5,844 nucleotides of DNA from Pseudomonas sp. (GTDB lineage: Bacteria; Pseudomonadota; Gammaproteobacteria; Pseudomonadales; Pseudomonadaceae): contig JARDZH010000162.1 of the NCBI GenBank assembly GCA_029240955.1, positions 1 through 5,844 of the forward strand, read 5' to 3'. Position numbers and translations under genes: made by a program. The stretch's first letter is position 1. Each line of letters starts with the position of its first letter. The notes beneath the pieces are model-generated. The model did no database searches. It was not told where the DNA came from and was given only the letters and a program-made list of their open reading frames with translations. This document shows positions 1 through 5,844 of this stretch, in pieces.

Positions 1-1771
1 CCTCCATCGGCGCCAGGCAAGCCGGGTCCGGCGTGGGCACGTAGTGGTTGTAGAACGTGCAGCCCTCCACCGAAGGCCCGAGCACCCACAGCCGCGGGTG
101 CACCGAGCCGTCCTGTTGCAGTGCGCGGCCCAGCGCGTCGGTGTCGATCCCGTCAGCCGGCCAAGGATGAGCCGCACGGATCAGCCCCTGCTGGAGCAGA
201 TCTGCAATCAACTCTTGAGCACTCCCGGACAAGCCGCTGTGAGCGACCCGGGCGGGGATGACCTGATCGAAGTCGAGGTGATGTTCAGCGCCAGGGCCGA
301 GTACGGTCACAACCCCGGCATCGATCAGCGCCAGCAGGTCTTCGTAGCGTTCAAGCTGCGGGCCGCCGACCAGACGGTTGGAAACCCTGGCCCAGACGCT
401 GTAGAAATCATGGGTGGAGGCGTCGGTGAGGCCGTGACGATCAGCCACTCGGCGCAACAGGTCGCGGCAGTCGCGCCAGACCTCCAGCGCAGCCTTGACC
501 GGACTCTGCGCAGCGCCCAGGCGGCTAAGCGCAAGATCACGTTCGATCCAGTGCCGAAACCACGCCGCGTAGGCCTCGCCCTGCCCCGACCCTGAACCTG
601 GCCACGCCGCGGTGGGCATCCACTCCAGCGGATCGAATGCGCCCCACTGATCTGCCAGTCCTGCAAACAGCGTCTCGCGAGCCACGTTATCGGTCGCCAT
701 GCGCAGTTGATGTTGCACGCGGCCGAGCTGCGCCGGCGCGTCCCGCTGCAGCCGTGTCTGATAAAACACGGCGCGCATCTCAGCGGCGATCAGCGGCAGC
801 ACATCATGGCGAAAATCCAGCTGGCCTGCCTCGCGCCCCAAACGCAGCGCGTCCACCGCGGCTGCGGTGAAGAACAGCCGTGGCCATTTCAGTGAGTCGA
901 CCGCAATCCGGGGCCTGGCGTGAAAGGGCAAACCGCTGCGCGACTGCAGGAACACCTGTGGCTCACGACCGGACGGCTGATAACGCCAGCCGGCAAAACC
1001 CTGATCGCGGACGTAACGGCCACCGCGGCCTTCGGTCAGCCCGGCCAGTGTGTCCATCGCCGTAAGCCCCAGCCCCTCGATAGCGACGCGGCCGTGGGCC
1101 TCTTCAACACTCGACGCCTGCGGTGCATGGCCGGTGGTGAGAAACACCGCATCGCACGCCTTTTGCCAGCCGCTGGCGCTGACCAGCCGGAAACCCGTAC
1201 GGCCGGCCAACGGCCGACACTGGCTGAGCTTTTCTGCGTGGTGCTGAACCTGCACGTGCGCCGGGCAGCTCTGGATCAGCAGGCGATAACAGGCTTGCAG
1301 GTAGCGCCCCAGTAGCTTGCGCGGCACGAAATCGCCGTACTGCACTGGCCGGCCGCCGTGCTCGACGACATGACCTCGCTCATCCAGCTGCACACCGCGC
1401 TGGTTGCACCATTGCAGGAAGGTCATGGTCGCGGACTCACTGGCCGGAAACGCCGAAGAGAATGCGGACAACTGCCCGGCCGGGGTGTTGAGCATCAGGT
1501 AATCGGGCTGCTCGCTGTGGTGCAGCCCGCCGCCCGGCGCCCGCGGTTCGAAGACGTCGATGCGCAGACGCAGACCCGGGGTCTGGCGCGCCAGGCCGAT
1601 GAGTTGCTCCAGCACGCTGAGGCCTCGCGACCCCATGCCGACGATCGCGATTCTCGATGGCTCGTTTCTGAACTGTCCGGTTCTGAACGGCTCGGCTCTG
1701 AACGGCTGGGCCGGGGAATGGGCAGCCCGGTCGGCTTCAGCCTGCCTAGCCTGTAGGGAAATCCTTTTCAT
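1..1771 (-). CDS. FAD/NAD(P)-binding oxidoreductase-like protein (PF13454 type), 3' end off window
   Basis: The frame reads from ATG at 1771 to base 1 without a stop (590 residues visible), so the gene runs off the left edge. An N-terminal dinucleotide-binding motif, IAIVGMGSRG (residues 41-50), is followed by EPRAPGGGL (75-83), LMLNTPAGQLSAF (92-104), VPRKLLGRYL (149-158) and a strand ending TTGHAP (212-217). Late in the protein come LIDAGVVTVLGPG and LWVLGPSVEG (561-570). This order is typical of the large FAD-NAD(P)-binding family PF13454, whose members are about 600 residues, so probably only a short tail is missing. The start is firm: no other ATG, GTG or TTG lies in frame before the Rossmann motif, and GGTGA sits 5 bp upstream. 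The 40-residue leader before the motif is unusually long and carries a small repeat. The reaction is unknown. By context it is a redox partner or tailoring enzyme acting with the upstream diaminopropionate synthase and N-hydroxylase. A cytosolic location is likely, since no signal peptide or membrane segment is seen. Confidence 0.88.
   Translation of the reverse strand, partial: MKRISLQARQAEADRAAHSPAQPFRAEPFRTGQFRNEPSRIAIVGMGSRGLSVLEQLIGLARQTPGLRLRIDVFEPRAPGGGLHHSEQPDYLMLNTPAGQLSAFSSAFPASESATMTFLQWCNQRGVQLDERGHVVEHGGRPVQYGDFVPRKLLGRYLQACYRLLIQSCPAHVQVQHHAEKLSQCRPLAGRTGFRLVSASGWQKACDAVFLTTGHAPQASSVEEAHGRVAIEGLGLTAMDTLAGLTEGRGGRYVRDQGFAGWRYQPSGREPQVFLQSRSGLPFHARPRIAVDSLKWPRLFFTAAAVDALRLGREAGQLDFRHDVLPLIAAEMRAVFYQTRLQRDAPAQLGRVQHQLRMATDNVARETLFAGLADQWGAFDPLEWMPTAAWPGSGSGQGEAYAAWFRHWIERDLALSRLGAAQSPVKAALEVWRDCRDLLRRVADRHGLTDASTHDFYSVWARVSNRLVGGPQLERYEDLLALIDAGVVTVLGPGAEHHLDFDQVIPARVAHSGLSGSAQELIADLLQQGLIRAAHPWPADGIDTDALGRALQQDGSVHPRLWVLGPSVEGCTFYNHYVPTPDPACLAPME
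1664..1708. repeat. three tandem 15-bp imperfect repeats inside the PF13454 gene
   Basis: Three consecutive 15-mers occur on the plus strand: gtttctgaactgtcc, ggttctgaacggctc and ggctctgaacggctg. They share the core tCTGAACnG. The unit is a multiple of three, so it stays in frame and encodes the five-residue repeats PFRAE, PFRTG and QFRNE (residues 23-37) on the minus strand. It lies in the variable leader before the FAD-binding fold and looks like local slippage duplication. No function is evident. Confidence 0.8.
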
Positions 1772-1776
1772 GACAT

Positions 1777-1781
1777 TCACC
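1777..1781 (-). promoter_or_regulatory. ribosome binding site of the PF13454 gene, overlapping upstream stop
   Basis: On the minus strand GGTGA lies 5 bases before the ATG at 1771, and its last three bases are the stop codon of the sbnA-sbnB fusion. This geometry favours translational coupling. An ATG directly after that stop meets an in-frame TGA two codons later, so it is not the start. Confidence 0.6.
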
Positions 1782-3786
1782 AGCGATTCGATTCGAAGAA
1801 AAAGTTCGGTACGGCCAGCGCACTGCCCTTGGCCAGCGCCTGCCGATAGATGCGATAGCCCACCGCAAGGTCCAGCACGCCCAGGCCGAACGGCGAGAAG
1901 ATCGAGGCTTTGTCAGGGCTGAGCTCGACCTCGCCGCACATCAACTGCGCCAGCGTGCCGGTGATGAACGAGCGGTCCTGATAGTGCTGCACGGCCAGGT
2001 CCGGCGAGGTTTGCGCCTTGAGGCAATGCTCAACGTCGTCGAGGATGTTGTTGGCTGCGGCAATCACCTGCGGACCGAGGTCGCGCAGCGAGATATTGAG
2101 CACGAGCTGTCCCGGCGCGAACAGCGGTTCCAGCACATACGGGCTCGGCGCCGTGGTTGCGAACACCACCAGATCGGCACGCAGGCTGTCCGCCAGGTCG
2201 GCACCGTCTGCAGACAGGCCGTGGTGATTGGAGGCGTGGGCCAGCAGCGCGGCAGCGCTGACCTGGTCGGTGTCGTGCACGCTGACGTGCTGCATCGTCC
2301 AGCCGTCGCTGACGAAAATGTCGAGAATCGTGCGGGCAATGAACCCCGCGCCTATGAACGCCACGCGCTTGACCTGACGCTGGCGGCGGTTCATCCACCA
2401 GGCGCCCAGCACGGCCGAGGCCGCCGTGCGCGAGGCGCTGATGCGCGACGCTTCAAGACATGCAAAGGCGTAGCCGGTGTGCGGGTCGTTGAGCACCAGC
2501 ACCGCCGAGGCCCGCTGCAGACCGGATTCGGTGTTGCCCGGAAAGCTGGAAATCCACTTGATGCCGCTGACCGGCTGCTCGCCTTGCAGACTCGCCGGCA
2601 AGGCAATGATCCGGTTGGCCGGCGCGTCGGGAAAGCGCAGGAAATAGCTGTCAGGATTGACGGTCTGGCCGGCGTGATGCTCCAGATAAGCGCCGCGCAC
2701 GTCCTCGATGCACGCCTGCGGGTCGGCGCTCAACAGCCGCGCAACCACTTGCCCGTCGACCAGATGAAACGGCGCATCACGCTGCTGTCTGGCGGCGAGA
2801 TAGCGCGTCCACTCCGGCACGATGGGCATGTCCGCCAGCGCCATGCTCAGCACCTCGGCGCCGAACCGCTGCTCCACCCACTGATCGTCGTACAGCGTAT
2901 CCAGATAACGTTCGCCCCAGTCCGGCGACAGCGCCACCACCACCGAACCTGGCTCGATGCGCTCGCGCCAGGCATGCACGGCAGCGATCACGGTCGCGGT
3001 CGAACCGCCGACCAGCATCCCCTTGGTGCGCGCCAGCAACCGGCACATGGCGACGGTGCGTGACTCGGGCACCATCTCCAGTGCGTGGATCCCGTCGATG
3101 TCGAAGATCGGCGGCCGCTGGCTGGTGCCCAGCCCCGGTATGAAACGGCGACCGGGCGGCGTGTCGAACGTGACTGAGCCGACACTGTCCACAGCGATGA
3201 TTCGAGTGGTCGGATGGTGCTTGCGGAAATGCTGCACGCAGCCCATCAGCGTGCCAGTGGTCCCGGCGCCGACGAACAGATAATCCACATGCCCGACTTC
3301 ACGGGAAATGGAACGCGCAGTCGTGCAGGCGTGAGCGCGCGGGTTGGCGGCGTTCTCGTATTGATTGAGCCACACGTAACGCGGGTCGCTGGCGACCTTG
3401 TCGCGAATCAGCTCAAGGCGCGTGCCCAGATAACCGCCGTTGGCGTCCGGCGTCTCGACGCGAATCACGTCAGCGCCGTACGTGCGCATCATGCGGATGT
3501 TGTGGTTCGAGGTGTTGGGGTCGACCACGCAGGTGAAGGCAATGCCGCGCTCGGCGCAGAGCATCGCCAGCGCGACCCCGAGGTTGCCGGATGACGATTC
3601 GATCAGAACCGTGTCGGGGCCGATCAGACCACGGGCCTGCAGGTCATTCACCAGGCCTGCGGCGGTCTTGAGCTTGATCGAGCCTGCGGGGTTGAACGAC
3701 TCCATTTTCAGGAGAAAGTCGGGGCCAACGCCCGACACCTTGAGGAAGGTCCGGTCGTGGACGATGTCGCTGATTGTCTCGTACAT
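1777..3786 (-). CDS. sbnA-sbnB: fused SbnA-SbnB: bifunctional L-2,3-diaminopropionate biosynthesis protein
   Basis: Known SbnA joins O-phospho-L-serine and L-glutamate to give N-(1-amino-1-carboxyl-2-ethyl)-glutamate. SbnB then oxidatively cleaves this with NAD+ to L-Dap and 2-oxoglutarate. Here both are one 669-residue cytosolic protein. Residues 1 to about 313 are the PLP cysteine-synthase fold: NPAGSIK with the presumed Schiff-base Lys38, ESSSGN (63-68), PDANGGYLGTR (113-123), the phosphate loop GAGTTGT (173-179), GGSTA (260-264) and SPDWGERYLD (287-296). Residues from about 339 to 669 are SbnB: GIKWISSFPGN (408-418), QRASAVLVLND, EASRISASRTAA (445-456) and the NAD-binding GAGFIA (479-484). 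The ATG at 3786 is chosen because translation further upstream only overlaps the previous gene and SbnA homology starts here; a weak SD lies 5 bp upstream. Odd points are the fusion itself, the DR missing after the catalytic lysine (SIKLK instead of SxKDR), and TF in place of the usual GxTP near the N-terminus. The family call is confident. The exact substrates are inferred. Confidence 0.92.
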   Translation of the reverse strand: MYETISDIVHDRTFLKVSGVGPDFLLKMESFNPAGSIKLKTAAGLVNDLQARGLIGPDTVLIESSSGNLGVALAMLCAERGIAFTCVVDPNTSNHNIRMMRTYGADVIRVETPDANGGYLGTRLELIRDKVASDPRYVWLNQYENAANPRAHACTTARSISREVGHVDYLFVGAGTTGTLMGCVQHFRKHHPTTRIIAVDSVGSVTFDTPPGRRFIPGLGTSQRPPIFDIDGIHALEMVPESRTVAMCRLLARTKGMLVGGSTATVIAAVHAWRERIEPGSVVVALSPDWGERYLDTLYDDQWVEQRFGAEVLSMALADMPIVPEWTRYLAARQQRDAPFHLVDGQVVARLLSADPQACIEDVRGAYLEHHAGQTVNPDSYFLRFPDAPANRIIALPASLQGEQPVSGIKWISSFPGNTESGLQRASAVLVLNDPHTGYAFACLEASRISASRTAASAVLGAWWMNRRQRQVKRVAFIGAGFIARTILDIFVSDGWTMQHVSVHDTDQVSAAALLAHASNHHGLSADGADLADSLRADLVVFATTAPSPYVLEPLFAPGQLVLNISLRDLGPQVIAAANNILDDVEHCLKAQTSPDLAVQHYQDRSFITGTLAQLMCGEVELSPDKASIFSPFGLGVLDLAVGYRIYRQALAKGSALAVPNFFFESNRW
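2773..2847 (-). other. SbnA/SbnB fusion junction (interdomain linker)
   Basis: This codes for roughly residues 314-338 (from MALADMPIVPEW to RQQRD) between the C-terminal end of the SbnA-type fold and the start of the SbnB-type fold (FHLVDGQVVARLL). In standalone relatives such as staphylococcal SbnA and SbnB the two chains end and begin about here. No stop codon, start codon with SD, or frame change separates the halves. The boundaries are estimated from recalled homologues and are accurate to perhaps ten residues. Confidence 0.6.
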
Positions 3787-3791
3787 GAGGG

Positions 3792-3798
3792 TCACTTC
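3792..3798 (-). promoter_or_regulatory. weak ribosome binding site of sbnA-sbnB
   Basis: On the minus strand GAAGTGA ends 5 bases before the ATG at 3786 and begins within the stop codon of the N-hydroxylase gene. The match to the anti-SD is only partial, so translation may rely on ribosomes finishing the upstream gene. It supports the ATG at 3786 as the start. Confidence 0.45.
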
Positions 3799-5143
3799 AC
3801 TGTGCCGGAATCGGTTCAAAGTCGGGGGTCGGTGTGGCGTGTCCGCGCAGAGCCGGGTCACGCACGGCACGTTCCAGGGCGTGAGCGATGCGCTCGGCAC
3901 GCAGCGCCATCAGCGAGAAGGACTGGCTGTCACTGATGCCGTGACTGCGTTCGGACAGACCGTTGACCCAGAGCTTCACCTCGCAGCCCTCTCGGGTCGC
4001 TACCTGGTAATCGCGGTCGATCAACAGGCCGCCGTCGCGATCAGCCTTGAGCCAAGGCTGCAGGTTGCTGAGCAGCGGCGGGATCAGGTACTGCTGGTAG
4101 CCGGTACCCAGCACCACCACGTCGACATCGAGCGTGGTGCTGTGGCGGCTGAAAGTGTCGGTCAGCACCACGCGATAGCCCTCGCCCAGCGGCTGGATGT
4201 CCGATACAACACGGTAGGCGTGGCTGTGCAGACGCTGGCGCCCGGCGATGCGGTCTTCGTACATCAGCGAGAAGAGATTCTGGCTTTCGTCCGGGTCAAT
4301 GCCGGCGTAATTGGTCGAACGACTCCAGTCGAGGAACCGGTGCCGCGCGGCCGGCTCAAGGTTGTGGAAGTAGTCAACGTGGTCCGGGCCGAACACCCGA
4401 TTGGGAAACTGCCCCAACTGCGTGAGTTTGAAACCCGCCGAGCGATGCACCGAATGGACTTCAAGGCCGCGGTCACGGCCCAGCAGTTCCAGCACCGACT
4501 CGCTGGCGCTCTGACCGGAACCCAGCACCAGCCAGCGCTTGGGCAGCTCGGGGCCGAGGGCGTCGAGGCGGGTCAGAAACTGCGAGGTATGGAACAATCG
4601 CGGCCCTTGCAGCGGCACAAACGCCTCGGGAATTCGCGGCGCACTGCCGCTGGAAAGCACGACGTTGCGCGTGGTGAACCGGGCATTCGGCGTCACCAGT
4701 TCCACGGCCTCTAAGCGACCGTCCCTCATGACCGGCAGGATGTCAGTCACCGGCGTACTGAAGTGGGCGTCGCCGCTCACTTGCCCGGACACCCAGGCCA
4801 CGTAGTCCGACCATTCATGGCGGCTTGCCGGACGACCCAGCAGCCCGAAGTCGAACATGCGGCCCATGGCTTTGAGGTACATGGCGAACGAGAACCGGCT
4901 GCGGGGGTTGCGCGGCGTCACCAGATCACGGAACACGTGATGATTGATGTCCGTGCCTTCGAGCAGCAGTTCGGGATGCCATTGGGTATGCGGCGCGGCT
5001 TCGAAGTAGCGCAGCGACAGTTCGCCAAGCGGCGCATTGGCTTCCCGTGCGTCCTCGAACGCGCAGGACAACGCGATGCCAGCAGGCCCGAAGCCGATGC
5101 ACACGGCGTCGGATGCAAGTGGGTGTTGCGTAACAAGAGTCAT
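3797..5143 (-). CDS. flavin-dependent amine N-hydroxylase, SidA/PvdA/IucD family (lysine/ornithine N-monooxygenase-like)
   Basis: Members of this class B flavoprotein family use FAD, NADPH and O2 to hydroxylate a side-chain amine, usually of ornithine or lysine for siderophore hydroxamates. The protein has 448 residues, close to PvdA. It shows the FAD motif GFGPAG (17-22), WHPELLLEGTD (55-65), RNPRSRFSF (78-86), the NADPH motif VLGSGQSASE (206-215), a TNY motif, LGTGY (345-349) and the C-terminal SHGISDSQS signature. The ATG at 5143 is preferred over upstream starts because it places GFGPAG near the N-terminus as in the family, has GGACGAG 6 bp upstream, and avoids a 150-bp overlap with the preceding gene. 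The conserved substrate-site stretch MQxxFxKDL reads INHHVFRDL here (66-74). The Gln and Lys that contact ornithine in PvdA/SidA are therefore Asn67 and Arg72. The substrate is thus uncertain. The adjacent L-Dap synthase makes Dap or a Dap-derived amine a candidate. Confidence 0.9.
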   Translation of the reverse strand: MTLVTQHPLASDAVCIGFGPAGIALSCAFEDAREANAPLGELSLRYFEAAPHTQWHPELLLEGTDINHHVFRDLVTPRNPRSRFSFAMYLKAMGRMFDFGLLGRPASRHEWSDYVAWVSGQVSGDAHFSTPVTDILPVMRDGRLEAVELVTPNARFTTRNVVLSSGSAPRIPEAFVPLQGPRLFHTSQFLTRLDALGPELPKRWLVLGSGQSASESVLELLGRDRGLEVHSVHRSAGFKLTQLGQFPNRVFGPDHVDYFHNLEPAARHRFLDWSRSTNYAGIDPDESQNLFSLMYEDRIAGRQRLHSHAYRVVSDIQPLGEGYRVVLTDTFSRHSTTLDVDVVVLGTGYQQYLIPPLLSNLQPWLKADRDGGLLIDRDYQVATREGCEVKLWVNGLSERSHGISDSQSFSLMALRAERIAHALERAVRDPALRGHATPTPDFEPIPAQ

Positions 5144-5149
5144 GGAATT

Positions 5150-5156
5150 CTCGTCC
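5150..5156 (-). promoter_or_regulatory. ribosome binding site of the N-hydroxylase gene
   Basis: On the minus strand GGACGAG lies 6 bases before the ATG at 5143, inside the 50-bp spacer after the binding-protein gene. It decides the start codon in favour of 5143 over the longer upstream reading frame. Confidence 0.55.
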
Positions 5157-5193
5157 GTGGAATTGACAGCAAAGGTTTGAATGAACGGCAAGC

Positions 5194-5844
5194 TCAGCCA
5201 CTGAGCGGGATCAGTCCTGCCGGACCGATGCGCCAGAGCTGGGTCCACACGCCATGGCGTTCGCCACGGGTAAAAGCGACTTCGCCCAGCGGAGTATCGA
5301 AACGGGTGGTTTGCAATGCCTGGAGCAGCTCGTGCCTGCGCCACGCACCGGTCGCGAGCTGCGCCAGCACGTGCAACATCAACAGGCTTTCCCGGTAGTA
5401 GGTTTCAGGCGGCGCGTTGAACAGCGCTTGCAGCTGCGCATCCCCTGAGCCAAACGCTTGATCCGCAGCGCCGAAGCCGATGACGTAAGTGCTGTCGTCC
5501 GCCTCTGGCGCGGTGCCCAACTGCATGGAAACCGCGTCGTCGGTGAGCACCAGCGGCGCTTTGCTGCCCGCAGCGCGACGCGATTGCCAATGCTCGCGAC
5601 TGGCGCGCAGGCGGCCGGCGAACACCTCGACCTGCGCCTGCTCGCGTTCGGCAACCCTTTGCAAACCGGCTTGCGCTGCAGTCTTCGCGATGGCGCTGGC
5701 CAGGCCTTGCCCGTGGGCGCTGTCATCGGCGCTGACATGCACGACCTGCCATTTCCGCCCCGTCAGCCAATCGACCAGATCTGCCGCCAGTTGCCGGTCG
5801 GACGGGCAAAAGCGGAATACATTGGCGTGTTGCTGCGTGAGGCC
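5194..5844 (-). CDS. type-1 periplasmic-binding-protein-like protein (LivK/Peripla_BP_6 fold), 5' end off window
   Basis: The frame is open from the right edge to the TGA at 5194-5196, giving 216 visible residues. It reads through the internal GTG at 5742, which is therefore not the likely start. The first visible residues resemble the second half of branched-chain amino acid or amide binding proteins: NVFRFCPSDRQLAADLVDWL, then a strand and helix with HVSADDSAHGQGLASAIAK. A middle segment contains APLVLTDDAVS and TYVIGFGAADQ. Then come a helical PETYYRESLLMLHVLAQLAT and a C-terminus FDTPLGEVAFTRGER ending WRIGPAGLIPLSG, which matches the usual TPLG-x-V-x-F ending. Such proteins are about 370-400 residues, so roughly the first half and any signal peptide lie outside. 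It could bind a substrate or product for ABC uptake, or act as a ligand sensor like AmiC. No permease or ATPase is visible. It is in the same orientation as the biosynthetic genes, 50 bp upstream. Confidence 0.75.
   Translation of the reverse strand, partial: GLTQQHANVFRFCPSDRQLAADLVDWLTGRKWQVVHVSADDSAHGQGLASAIAKTAAQAGLQRVAEREQAQVEVFAGRLRASREHWQSRRAAGSKAPLVLTDDAVSMQLGTAPEADDSTYVIGFGAADQAFGSGDAQLQALFNAPPETYYRESLLMLHVLAQLATGAWRRHELLQALQTTRFDTPLGEVAFTRGERHGVWTQLWRIGPAGLIPLSG

Follow-up and report, generated by a model that had tools for sequence, protein, structure and literature searches.

A conserved Pseudomonas gene cassette with a predicted route from L-2,3-diaminopropionate to an amino acid with an N-N bond

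The stretch of DNA analyzed here, henceforth the window, comprises 5,844 nucleotides from Pseudomonas sp. (GenBank assembly GCA_029240955.1, contig JARDZH010000162.1, positions 1 to 5,844) and holds four same-strand genes with open frames, among them a fused synthase for L-2,3-diaminopropionate (Dap; Table 1). Their order of transcription is the PF13458 protein, the PF13434 N-hydroxylase, the SbnA-SbnB fusion and the PF13454 flavoprotein, separated by 50 bp, 10 bp and a 4-bp overlap, respectively. A first-pass annotation had proposed a tight cluster of three genes, namely the Dap synthase, the SidA-like N-hydroxylase and the PF13454 flavoprotein, which the Pfam and TIGRFAM scores and the spacing bear out; it had overlooked the PF13458 gene. 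The fusion passes both curated equivalog models of Dap synthesis: TIGR03945 scores 405.0 bits (cut-off 349.95) and TIGR03944 405.8 bits (cut-off 326.9). We posit, from gene content and comparison with relatives, that the window quite probably covers the downstream half of an operon whose product is an N-N-bonded amino acid derived from Dap.

Table 1. Genes of the window
Feature	Positions	Strand	Extent and score	Predicted role
PF13454 flavoprotein, CreE/L-aspartate N-hydroxylase family, altered substrate residues	2-1780	minus	593 aa seen, 3' end cut by left window edge; 114.4 bits	N-oxidation of Dap or a Dap derivative
Fused SbnA-SbnB	1777-3786	minus	669 aa	L-2,3-diaminopropionate synthase
PF13434 SidA/PvdA-type flavin N-hydroxylase	3797-5143	minus	448 aa; 243.9 bits	L-Dap N3-hydroxylase
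PF13458 substrate-binding-protein fold	5194-5844	minus	216 aa seen, 5' end cut by right window edge	

We judge this four-gene set to be more than a chance assemblage because 37 loci carry orthologues of all four genes in this order and because the genes are under purifying selection, with ratios of nonsynonymous to synonymous substitution of 0.10-0.31 in 24 of 24 comparisons across six loci. The nearest retrieved locus, from Pseudomonas sp. v388 (L001), is 75.6% identical to the window at the DNA level. A scan of the window for promoters and terminators returned 0 and 4 sites, as against 0.8 and 3.5 in shuffled sequence. Plasmid records matching the window number 37, none of them with 80% of the window in one place, and the matches listed (20 of the 37 records) are confined to about 1833-3693, that is, the sbnAB part.

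The related loci come from two kinds of search. First, a scan of genome contigs with the SbnA-SbnB protein confirmed 413 relatives, the best 80 of which gave 75 loci. In 29 of these the order is cupin, methionyl-tRNA synthetase (MetRS)-like protein, DAO-family oxidase, substrate-binding-type protein, SidA-type N-hydroxylase, SbnA, SbnB and PF13454 protein, with stop-free alignments; three further loci hold the same cassette in split or rearranged form (L034 with L036, and L053), five hold SbnA-SbnB-PF13454 without the other cassette genes (L024, L031, L032, L042 and L043) and 38 have the Sbn genes alone in the retrieved stretch. Second, 398 Pseudomonas genomes were searched with the MetRS-like protein (E 1e-32), and 38 gave a match, at identities of 76-100% (17), 48-49% (10), 42% (one), 40% (one) and 27-33% (nine, some of which may be housekeeping MetRS). 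Twelve regions were retrieved. The eight-gene cassette is present in the 42% locus and in all five loci taken from the ten at 48-49%, while the Sbn genes are absent from the retrieved stretch of the six loci at 40% identity or less. The family of the Paraburkholderia fungorum locus L022 contributed 3 matches to the MetRS-like protein among 299 genomes, that of L022 included, and both new ones (L124 and L125) have all eight genes. Among the 14 MetRS-reached loci that were read widely, a set lying outside the 17 closest matches, Sbn genes are accordingly found in 8/8 at 42-56% identity and in 0/6 at 40% or below. A search of the order of Aeromonas cavernicola gave 0 matches in 394 genomes at E 1e-50, an empty answer that carries no weight.

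Together these amount to 37 eight-gene loci: 28 of a syringae type in Pseudomonas, six from other Pseudomonas and three from the Paraburkholderia family, of which 29 were found through SbnA-SbnB itself, making the linkage circular for them, and eight through the MetRS-like protein. The split pair L034/L036 (one strain, two contigs) and the rearranged L053 are left out of this number. In L053, from P. syringae pv. cilantro, sbnAB is divided between two contig parts in opposite orientation, reflecting a rearrangement or an assembly error. Clustering at 95% identity reduces the 37 N-hydroxylases to 28 groups. SbnA and SbnB share a single frame in the syringae type and L022, and are encoded separately in the six other Pseudomonas loci and L125; in L109, the edge of the SbnB alignment contains a single stop, which precedes the start called for the gene. 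For the residue counts given below, L043, cut by a contig end, is omitted, and L124 and L125 enter the count of the N-hydroxylase by reading and lie outside those of the cupin (35) and the PF13454 protein (36). Genomes labelled P. graminis carry two cassette versions, the syringae type (L010) and the 49% type (L110, with PF13454 protein P0001), which suggests either cassette transfer or a problem of naming.

The genes upstream of the window's set in these relatives are what point to N-N bond formation. In locus L003 a Pfam scan identifies them as Cupin_2, a class-I synthetase (PF09334) and an oxidase (PF01266); the PF09334 scan covers L003 only, and a homologue of its MetRS-like protein is present in 37/37 loci. 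This protein is about 500 aa long and, as read in L003, keeps the HIGH motif and a KMSKS-like LSTSR motif. The NCBIfam model NF008859 labels it (L003:5008-6507) methionine--tRNA ligase, at 849 bits versus 553, and each of three genomes checked has a second, distant match of normal MetRS size; this naming may hide such clusters in annotation. In the cupin, HxQxxxE...H is invariant in all 35 aligned cassette members, a pattern that includes the glutamate described as invariant and critical in N-N cupins (PMC8664883). The nearest solved relatives of the oxidase are sarcosine and glycine oxidases, which fits an enzyme attacking an N-substituted amino acid. The side-chain amine N-hydroxylase, represented by PF13434 in the window, has a homologue in 37/37 loci (in two frames in L112). 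As set out in PMC11705231 and PMC8664883, the hydrazine synthetase set comprises a MetRS-like protein, a cupin, an N-hydroxylase and a DAO homologue. In it, the MetRS-like part activates an amino acid by adenylation and transfers it to a hydroxylamine to form an ester; the zinc cupin turns this ester into a hydrazine by rearrangement, and the DAO homologue cleaves the hydrazine. By homology, the upstream genes of the 37 loci are this known set, and because of this, N-N bond formation through a hydroxylamine ester becomes the leading option. The first-pass annotation had imagined a product with an N-oxidized Dap unit, either a hydroxamate metallophore or a nitroso, diazeniumdiolate or N-N-bonded compound; the pathway from Dap stands, with the N-N compound now foremost among these. 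The window would accordingly be one half of the cassette, with the cupin, MetRS-like and DAO genes predicted to lie upstream of it.

The identity of the hydroxylated amine can be approached through the N-hydroxylase itself. All 36 aligned cassette enzymes, that of the window included, have Asn64 and Arg69 (PvdA numbering), and with L124 and L125 the count becomes 38/38. Three solved enzymes of ornithine or lysine, namely PvdA, KtzI (presumably acting on ornithine) and the lysine enzyme MbtG, have Gln64 and Lys69, residues that in PvdA we take to contribute to substrate binding. Where hydrazine-type loci lack Sbn genes (six loci), the residues are Gln64 in 6/6 and Lys69 in 5/6. The sixth, L114, combines Gln64 with Arg69, and the gene that follows encodes a 2,4-diaminobutyrate (Dab) transaminase (TIGR02407, 648.2 bits versus 552.2). 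Arg69 may thus go with short diamino acids and Asn64 with the shortest, with a single Dab example behind the former. The locus of this example (L114/L126, in Pseudomonas genome G349) is a different hydrazine-synthetase-type cluster, with adenylation-domain-like proteins recognized by eye beside the Dab transaminase, and probably makes a Dab-based N-N product.

The eight proteins also diverge in parallel: their pairwise distances are correlated at 0.95-0.99 for the 37 loci and at 0.80-0.95 among the 28 of the syringae type, in part through common descent. Given this and the linkage to Sbn genes in the MetRS-reached loci, together with these active-site residues, we consider Dap the likely substrate. 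An alternative is that the hydrazine synthetase set uses N6-hydroxylysine and that Dap enters separately, as a building block attached at a later stage. The near relative of the window enzyme in the PDB, 5cqf (754.2 bits), was named L-lysine 6-monooxygenase by its depositors, and our literature search found no paper on it; lysine was also assumed in an earlier study of such neighborhoods (PMC2922099). Against this, the Asn64/Arg69 pair departs from the Gln/Lys pair of MbtG as well as of PvdA and KtzI, Arg69 recurs in the Dab-linked cluster, and the conserved set has no further amino-acid ligase. We hence regard a lysine substrate as unlikely.

The flavoprotein at the end of the cassette had been called simply a second flavin/nicotinamide enzyme. 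It is a flavoprotein, and this description can be extended: the window protein matches the L-aspartate N-hydroxylase of PDB 8cp2 at 152 bits, in two stretches over most of its length, and the Aeromonas member (L024) does so at 207 bits in one stretch. The homology to this CreE/FzmM family (8cp2/8cp5) extends over the nucleotide-binding and helical regions. In L-aspartate N-hydroxylase the aspartate is held by R13, R276, R416, R577 and N413, and in the engineered N413E variant NADPH oxidation remains while hydroxylated product is undetectable (PMC10404684). The cassette proteins keep much of the arginine cluster (R266, R409, R412 and N62 in 36/36; R13 and R416 in 35/36). Unlike CreE and FzmM, they stand beside SbnA-SbnB and are acidic at position 413 in 35 of 36 cases (Asp 30, Glu 5, Asn 1), with Thr (29) or Ser (7) at 577, His at 51 throughout, and R276 in just one. 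None therefore has the N413 and R577 pair of the aspartate chamber by which an L-aspartate N-hydroxylase would be recognized. In four PF13454 proteins whose only cassette neighbors are Sbn genes, R276 is kept along with Asp413 and Ser577, and the two groups may differ in substrate.

Streptomyces offers a comparison outside the cassette. A search of 295 genomes with the L024 protein gave 50 matches at E 1e-60, for which 30 loci were returned. Acidic 413 with Ser577 occurs in 13 of these, and SbnA and SbnB lie within 1.5 kb in 13/13. The other 17 have Asn413 (14), Ala413 (2) or Glu413 with Arg577 (1) and no Sbn genes that near (0/17); position 413 is readable in 30/30, while for 11 of the 17 the alignment has a gap at 577. 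N413 and R577 are present, and Sbn genes absent, in 30/30 of the Streptomyces loci closest to 8cp2; having been chosen for that closeness, these are not independent and are set aside as a control. On the basis of the changes at 413 and 577, the association with Sbn genes in Streptomyces and the published N413E variant, we predict a substrate in which an amine replaces the side-chain carboxylate; that is, the PF13454 protein should oxidize L-Dap or a Dap derivative rather than aspartate.

These data also bear on a division of labor opposite to the one we favor, in which the CreE-family enzyme makes the N-oxidized Dap for the N-N bond and the SidA-type enzyme acts elsewhere in the pathway. The 13 Streptomyces loci in which Sbn genes adjoin a CreE-family gene speak for this, as do the five of 75 loci that pair the CreE-family protein with SbnA-SbnB and have no SidA. 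Yet the published hydrazine synthetase clusters, as described in the sources cited above, use an ornithine/lysine-type N-hydroxylase, and such an enzyme directly precedes sbnA in all 37 cassettes, leaving this arrangement, in our estimation, quite improbable. We therefore retain the SidA-type enzyme as the likely source of the hydroxylamine. As the same five loci pair PF13454 with SbnA-SbnB where the hydrazine synthetase is missing, the PF13454 protein may act on something other than the hydrazine. No CreD-type lyase is seen among the proteins Pfam-scanned around the cassettes, where no search was aimed at CreD.

In actinobacteria, a pyridoxal phosphate (PLP)-dependent enzyme of the transsulfuration family follows SbnA-SbnB-PF13454 in 10 of the 13 Dap-linked Streptomyces loci (L163-L172), and the same arrangement is seen in L031, L032 and the Frankia locus L042 (L042:13637-14863), L163 being from the genome of L031. 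No hydrazine synthetase homologues are found in the retrieved stretches of L024, L031, L032 and L042. The actinobacterial set could be a separate pathway from N-oxidized Dap, perhaps a nitrite-releasing one. A more speculative synthesis, which we offer tentatively and as a whole, would place the PF13454 protein in a branch of the CreE family that acts as a Dap N-oxygenase, with successive N-oxidations of L-Dap or its derivative. In Pseudomonas this branch would be combined with a Dap-specific hydrazine synthetase to give a very small amino acid in which an N-N bond occurs together with an N-O group, for instance 3-hydrazinylalanine or its ring form 4-aminopyrazolidin-3-one, of cycloserine-like shape, with the other nitrogen oxidized; in actinobacteria, the transsulfuration-type PLP enzyme could release nitrite from N-oxidized Dap by a CreD-free route.

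The chemical steps of the pathway we favor are inferred from gene set, order, linkage, family memberships and residue changes that can be read directly from the sequences. SbnA and SbnB convert O-phosphoserine and glutamate to L-Dap and 2-oxoglutarate; by membership in these equivalog families, the SbnA half of the fusion would join the two substrates and the SbnB half would oxidize the product to release L-Dap and 2-oxoglutarate. The SidA-type enzyme, with substrate residues unlike those of the ornithine and lysine enzymes, would then hydroxylate the side-chain amine of L-Dap to N3-hydroxy-Dap. By analogy with PyrN and Spb40, the MetRS-like enzyme upstream would adenylate an amino acid and esterify it onto this hydroxylamine, the metal cupin would rearrange the ester to a hydrazine, and the DAO enzyme would cleave the hydrazine oxidatively. 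After this cleavage the N-N unit would, by a somewhat better than even chance, stay on the Dap side as 3-hydrazinylalanine, since a dedicated Dap synthase would be superfluous on a route to hydrazinoacetate, the doubtful alternative, and since Apy10 leaves the N-N unit on the diamino acid in a Dab-based pathway (PMC11705231). The least certain step is a possible oxidation of one more nitrogen by the CreE-family enzyme, for which the alpha-amine, either that of Dap or that of the hydrazine formed from it, is the most likely candidate. In the syringae-type version LysE would export the product.

Several observations weigh against this pathway, in addition to the name borne by 5cqf. The window itself has no cupin, MetRS-like or DAO genes, so that their presence in this genome is only inferred, and no product or activity was found for any cassette member. 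The presence of two N-oxygenases in one cassette is unexplained by the hydrazine pathways of the cited papers, and the five loci with PF13454 and SbnA-SbnB outside any hydrazine synthetase context sit uneasily with it. Two metal ligands of the cupin are unlike those of RHS1, with His and Gln replacing D63 and H65. As to the N-hydroxylase, L114, our control for Arg69, also lacks the equivalent of PvdA N254 and has Glu instead; in L112 (L112:12134-13629) the enzyme occupies two reading frames in an otherwise complete cassette, the split reflecting decay or a sequencing error. As to the flavoprotein, R276, so rare in the cassette, is kept in 4/4 of the proteins beside Sbn genes alone, and L113, counted among the 36, has Asn413 and lacks R13 and R416. 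Finally, common descent accounts for part of the agreement among the distances of the eight proteins.

Among known systems, the closest are the hydrazine synthetase pathways, with which the cassette shares the N-hydroxylase, the MetRS-like enzyme, the cupin and the DAO-type oxidase, and for which PMC11705231 gives Spb38/39/40 (s56-p1), Tri27/Tri28 (triacsin), PyrN (pyrazomycin), Apy9/Apy10 (actinopyridazinone) and Por9/Por11 (Pseudomonas orientalis), with further enzymes in its Table 2, one from Pseudomonas fluorescens and one from a Ralstonia. The hydroxylated partners named there are lysine, the Dab type, a compound L-28, putrescine and DAPN (PMC11705231). We read L-28 as ornithine and DAPN, placed 'beyond alpha-amino acids', as 1,3-diaminopropane; should it stand for diaminopropionate, Streptomyces would already provide a known case of the Dap step. 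Unlike these pathways, the present cassette supplies Dap itself and has two additional members, a CreE-family enzyme and a substrate-binding-type protein. To our knowledge, the cluster of L-alanosine, the diazeniumdiolate named at first pass, has no MetRS-like enzyme. It resembles the cassette in starting from Dap, in its N-N bond and in having CreE and CreD homologues, and differs in that PMC11705231 assigns its N-hydroxylation to an acyl-CoA-dehydrogenase-like protein.

That this exact set had not been recognized as a characterized cluster, as noted at first pass, agrees with our finding no matching characterized cluster; neighborhoods of this type were nonetheless described in 2010, though not as a Dap pathway. 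In that study Aravind, de Souza and Iyer reported neighborhoods of MtRS paralogues, with P. syringae in the species list, that share with the cassette the cupin, the MetRS paralogue, a lysine monooxygenase, periplasmic-binding-type proteins and homologues of cysteine synthase and ornithine cyclodeaminase (PMC2922099). Their interpretation differs, being one of a modified Met-Lys dipeptide with enzymes making Cys and Pro, and 'diaminopropion' occurs 0 times in the main text (PMC2922099). The 129 hydrazone-type clusters mined in Actinobacteria and Proteobacteria (PMC13061610) could include the present cassette. A Dap-based hydrazine pathway was not found in our literature search, which is weak evidence of absence with most subscription papers outside its reach, and novelty is judged here independently of the individual clusters of PMC13061610 and of Table 2 of PMC11705231. 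With this scope, the N-N cassette appears to be a variant of the known hydrazine synthetase type, and the CreE-family branch with its predicted substrate appears to be new.

If the pathway is as we propose, many named Pseudomonas species, several of which we take to belong to the P. syringae group, carry a conserved route to an undescribed hydrazine amino acid, concealed by the database names methionine--tRNA ligase, L-lysine 6-monooxygenase and FAD/NAD(P)-binding protein. Enzymatic formation of N-N bonds, which are rare, would gain Dap as a substrate, and simple sequence rules may predict substrate: Asn64/Arg69 for the SidA type, and acidic 413 with Thr/Ser577 for the CreE type. The published dead mutant N413E would then become a natural substrate switch, one that can be assayed directly.

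Of the remaining genes, the PF13458 protein has GHF, TDDA and HG motifs invariant in 18/18 aligned sequences, the Dab-type L114 included. It probably lacks a signal peptide and is cytoplasmic, because only a few residues separate the start from the first beta strand in its relatives (L003, L022, L110, L113, L124 and the Dab-type L114); it may bind a pathway intermediate.

After the cassette, a LysE exporter, an iron-type alcohol dehydrogenase and a PF00144 hydrolase occur in 28/28 syringae-type loci, and LysE and the alcohol dehydrogenase are also near the cassette in L124 and L125. SidA homologues serve hydroxamates, which would suit a hydroxamate or Dap-citrate siderophore cluster, and SbnA-SbnB make the Dap for staphyloferrin B (PMC3179956). 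However, the check for nonribosomal peptide synthetase (NRPS), NRPS-independent siderophore synthetase and TonB receptor genes, advised at first pass over 20 kb, found none among eight flanking proteins of L003 (about 5-8 kb either side of the cassette), two of L110 and the downstream set, and the MetRS-like and cupin pair has no known place in a siderophore pathway. The metallophore option is thereby left unsupported in the flanks scanned, and we consider a siderophore highly improbable. In L003:14494-16900 and its equivalents, the iron-type alcohol dehydrogenase is possibly an aldehyde-handling enzyme, and the PF00144 (beta-lactamase family) hydrolase possibly one for tailoring or self-protection. 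In the Paraburkholderia locus (L022:13984-19408), the genes after the cassette encode a haem-oxygenase-like protein (PF14518), a carbamoyltransferase and a protein whose GDSL-lipase match is below the cut-off.

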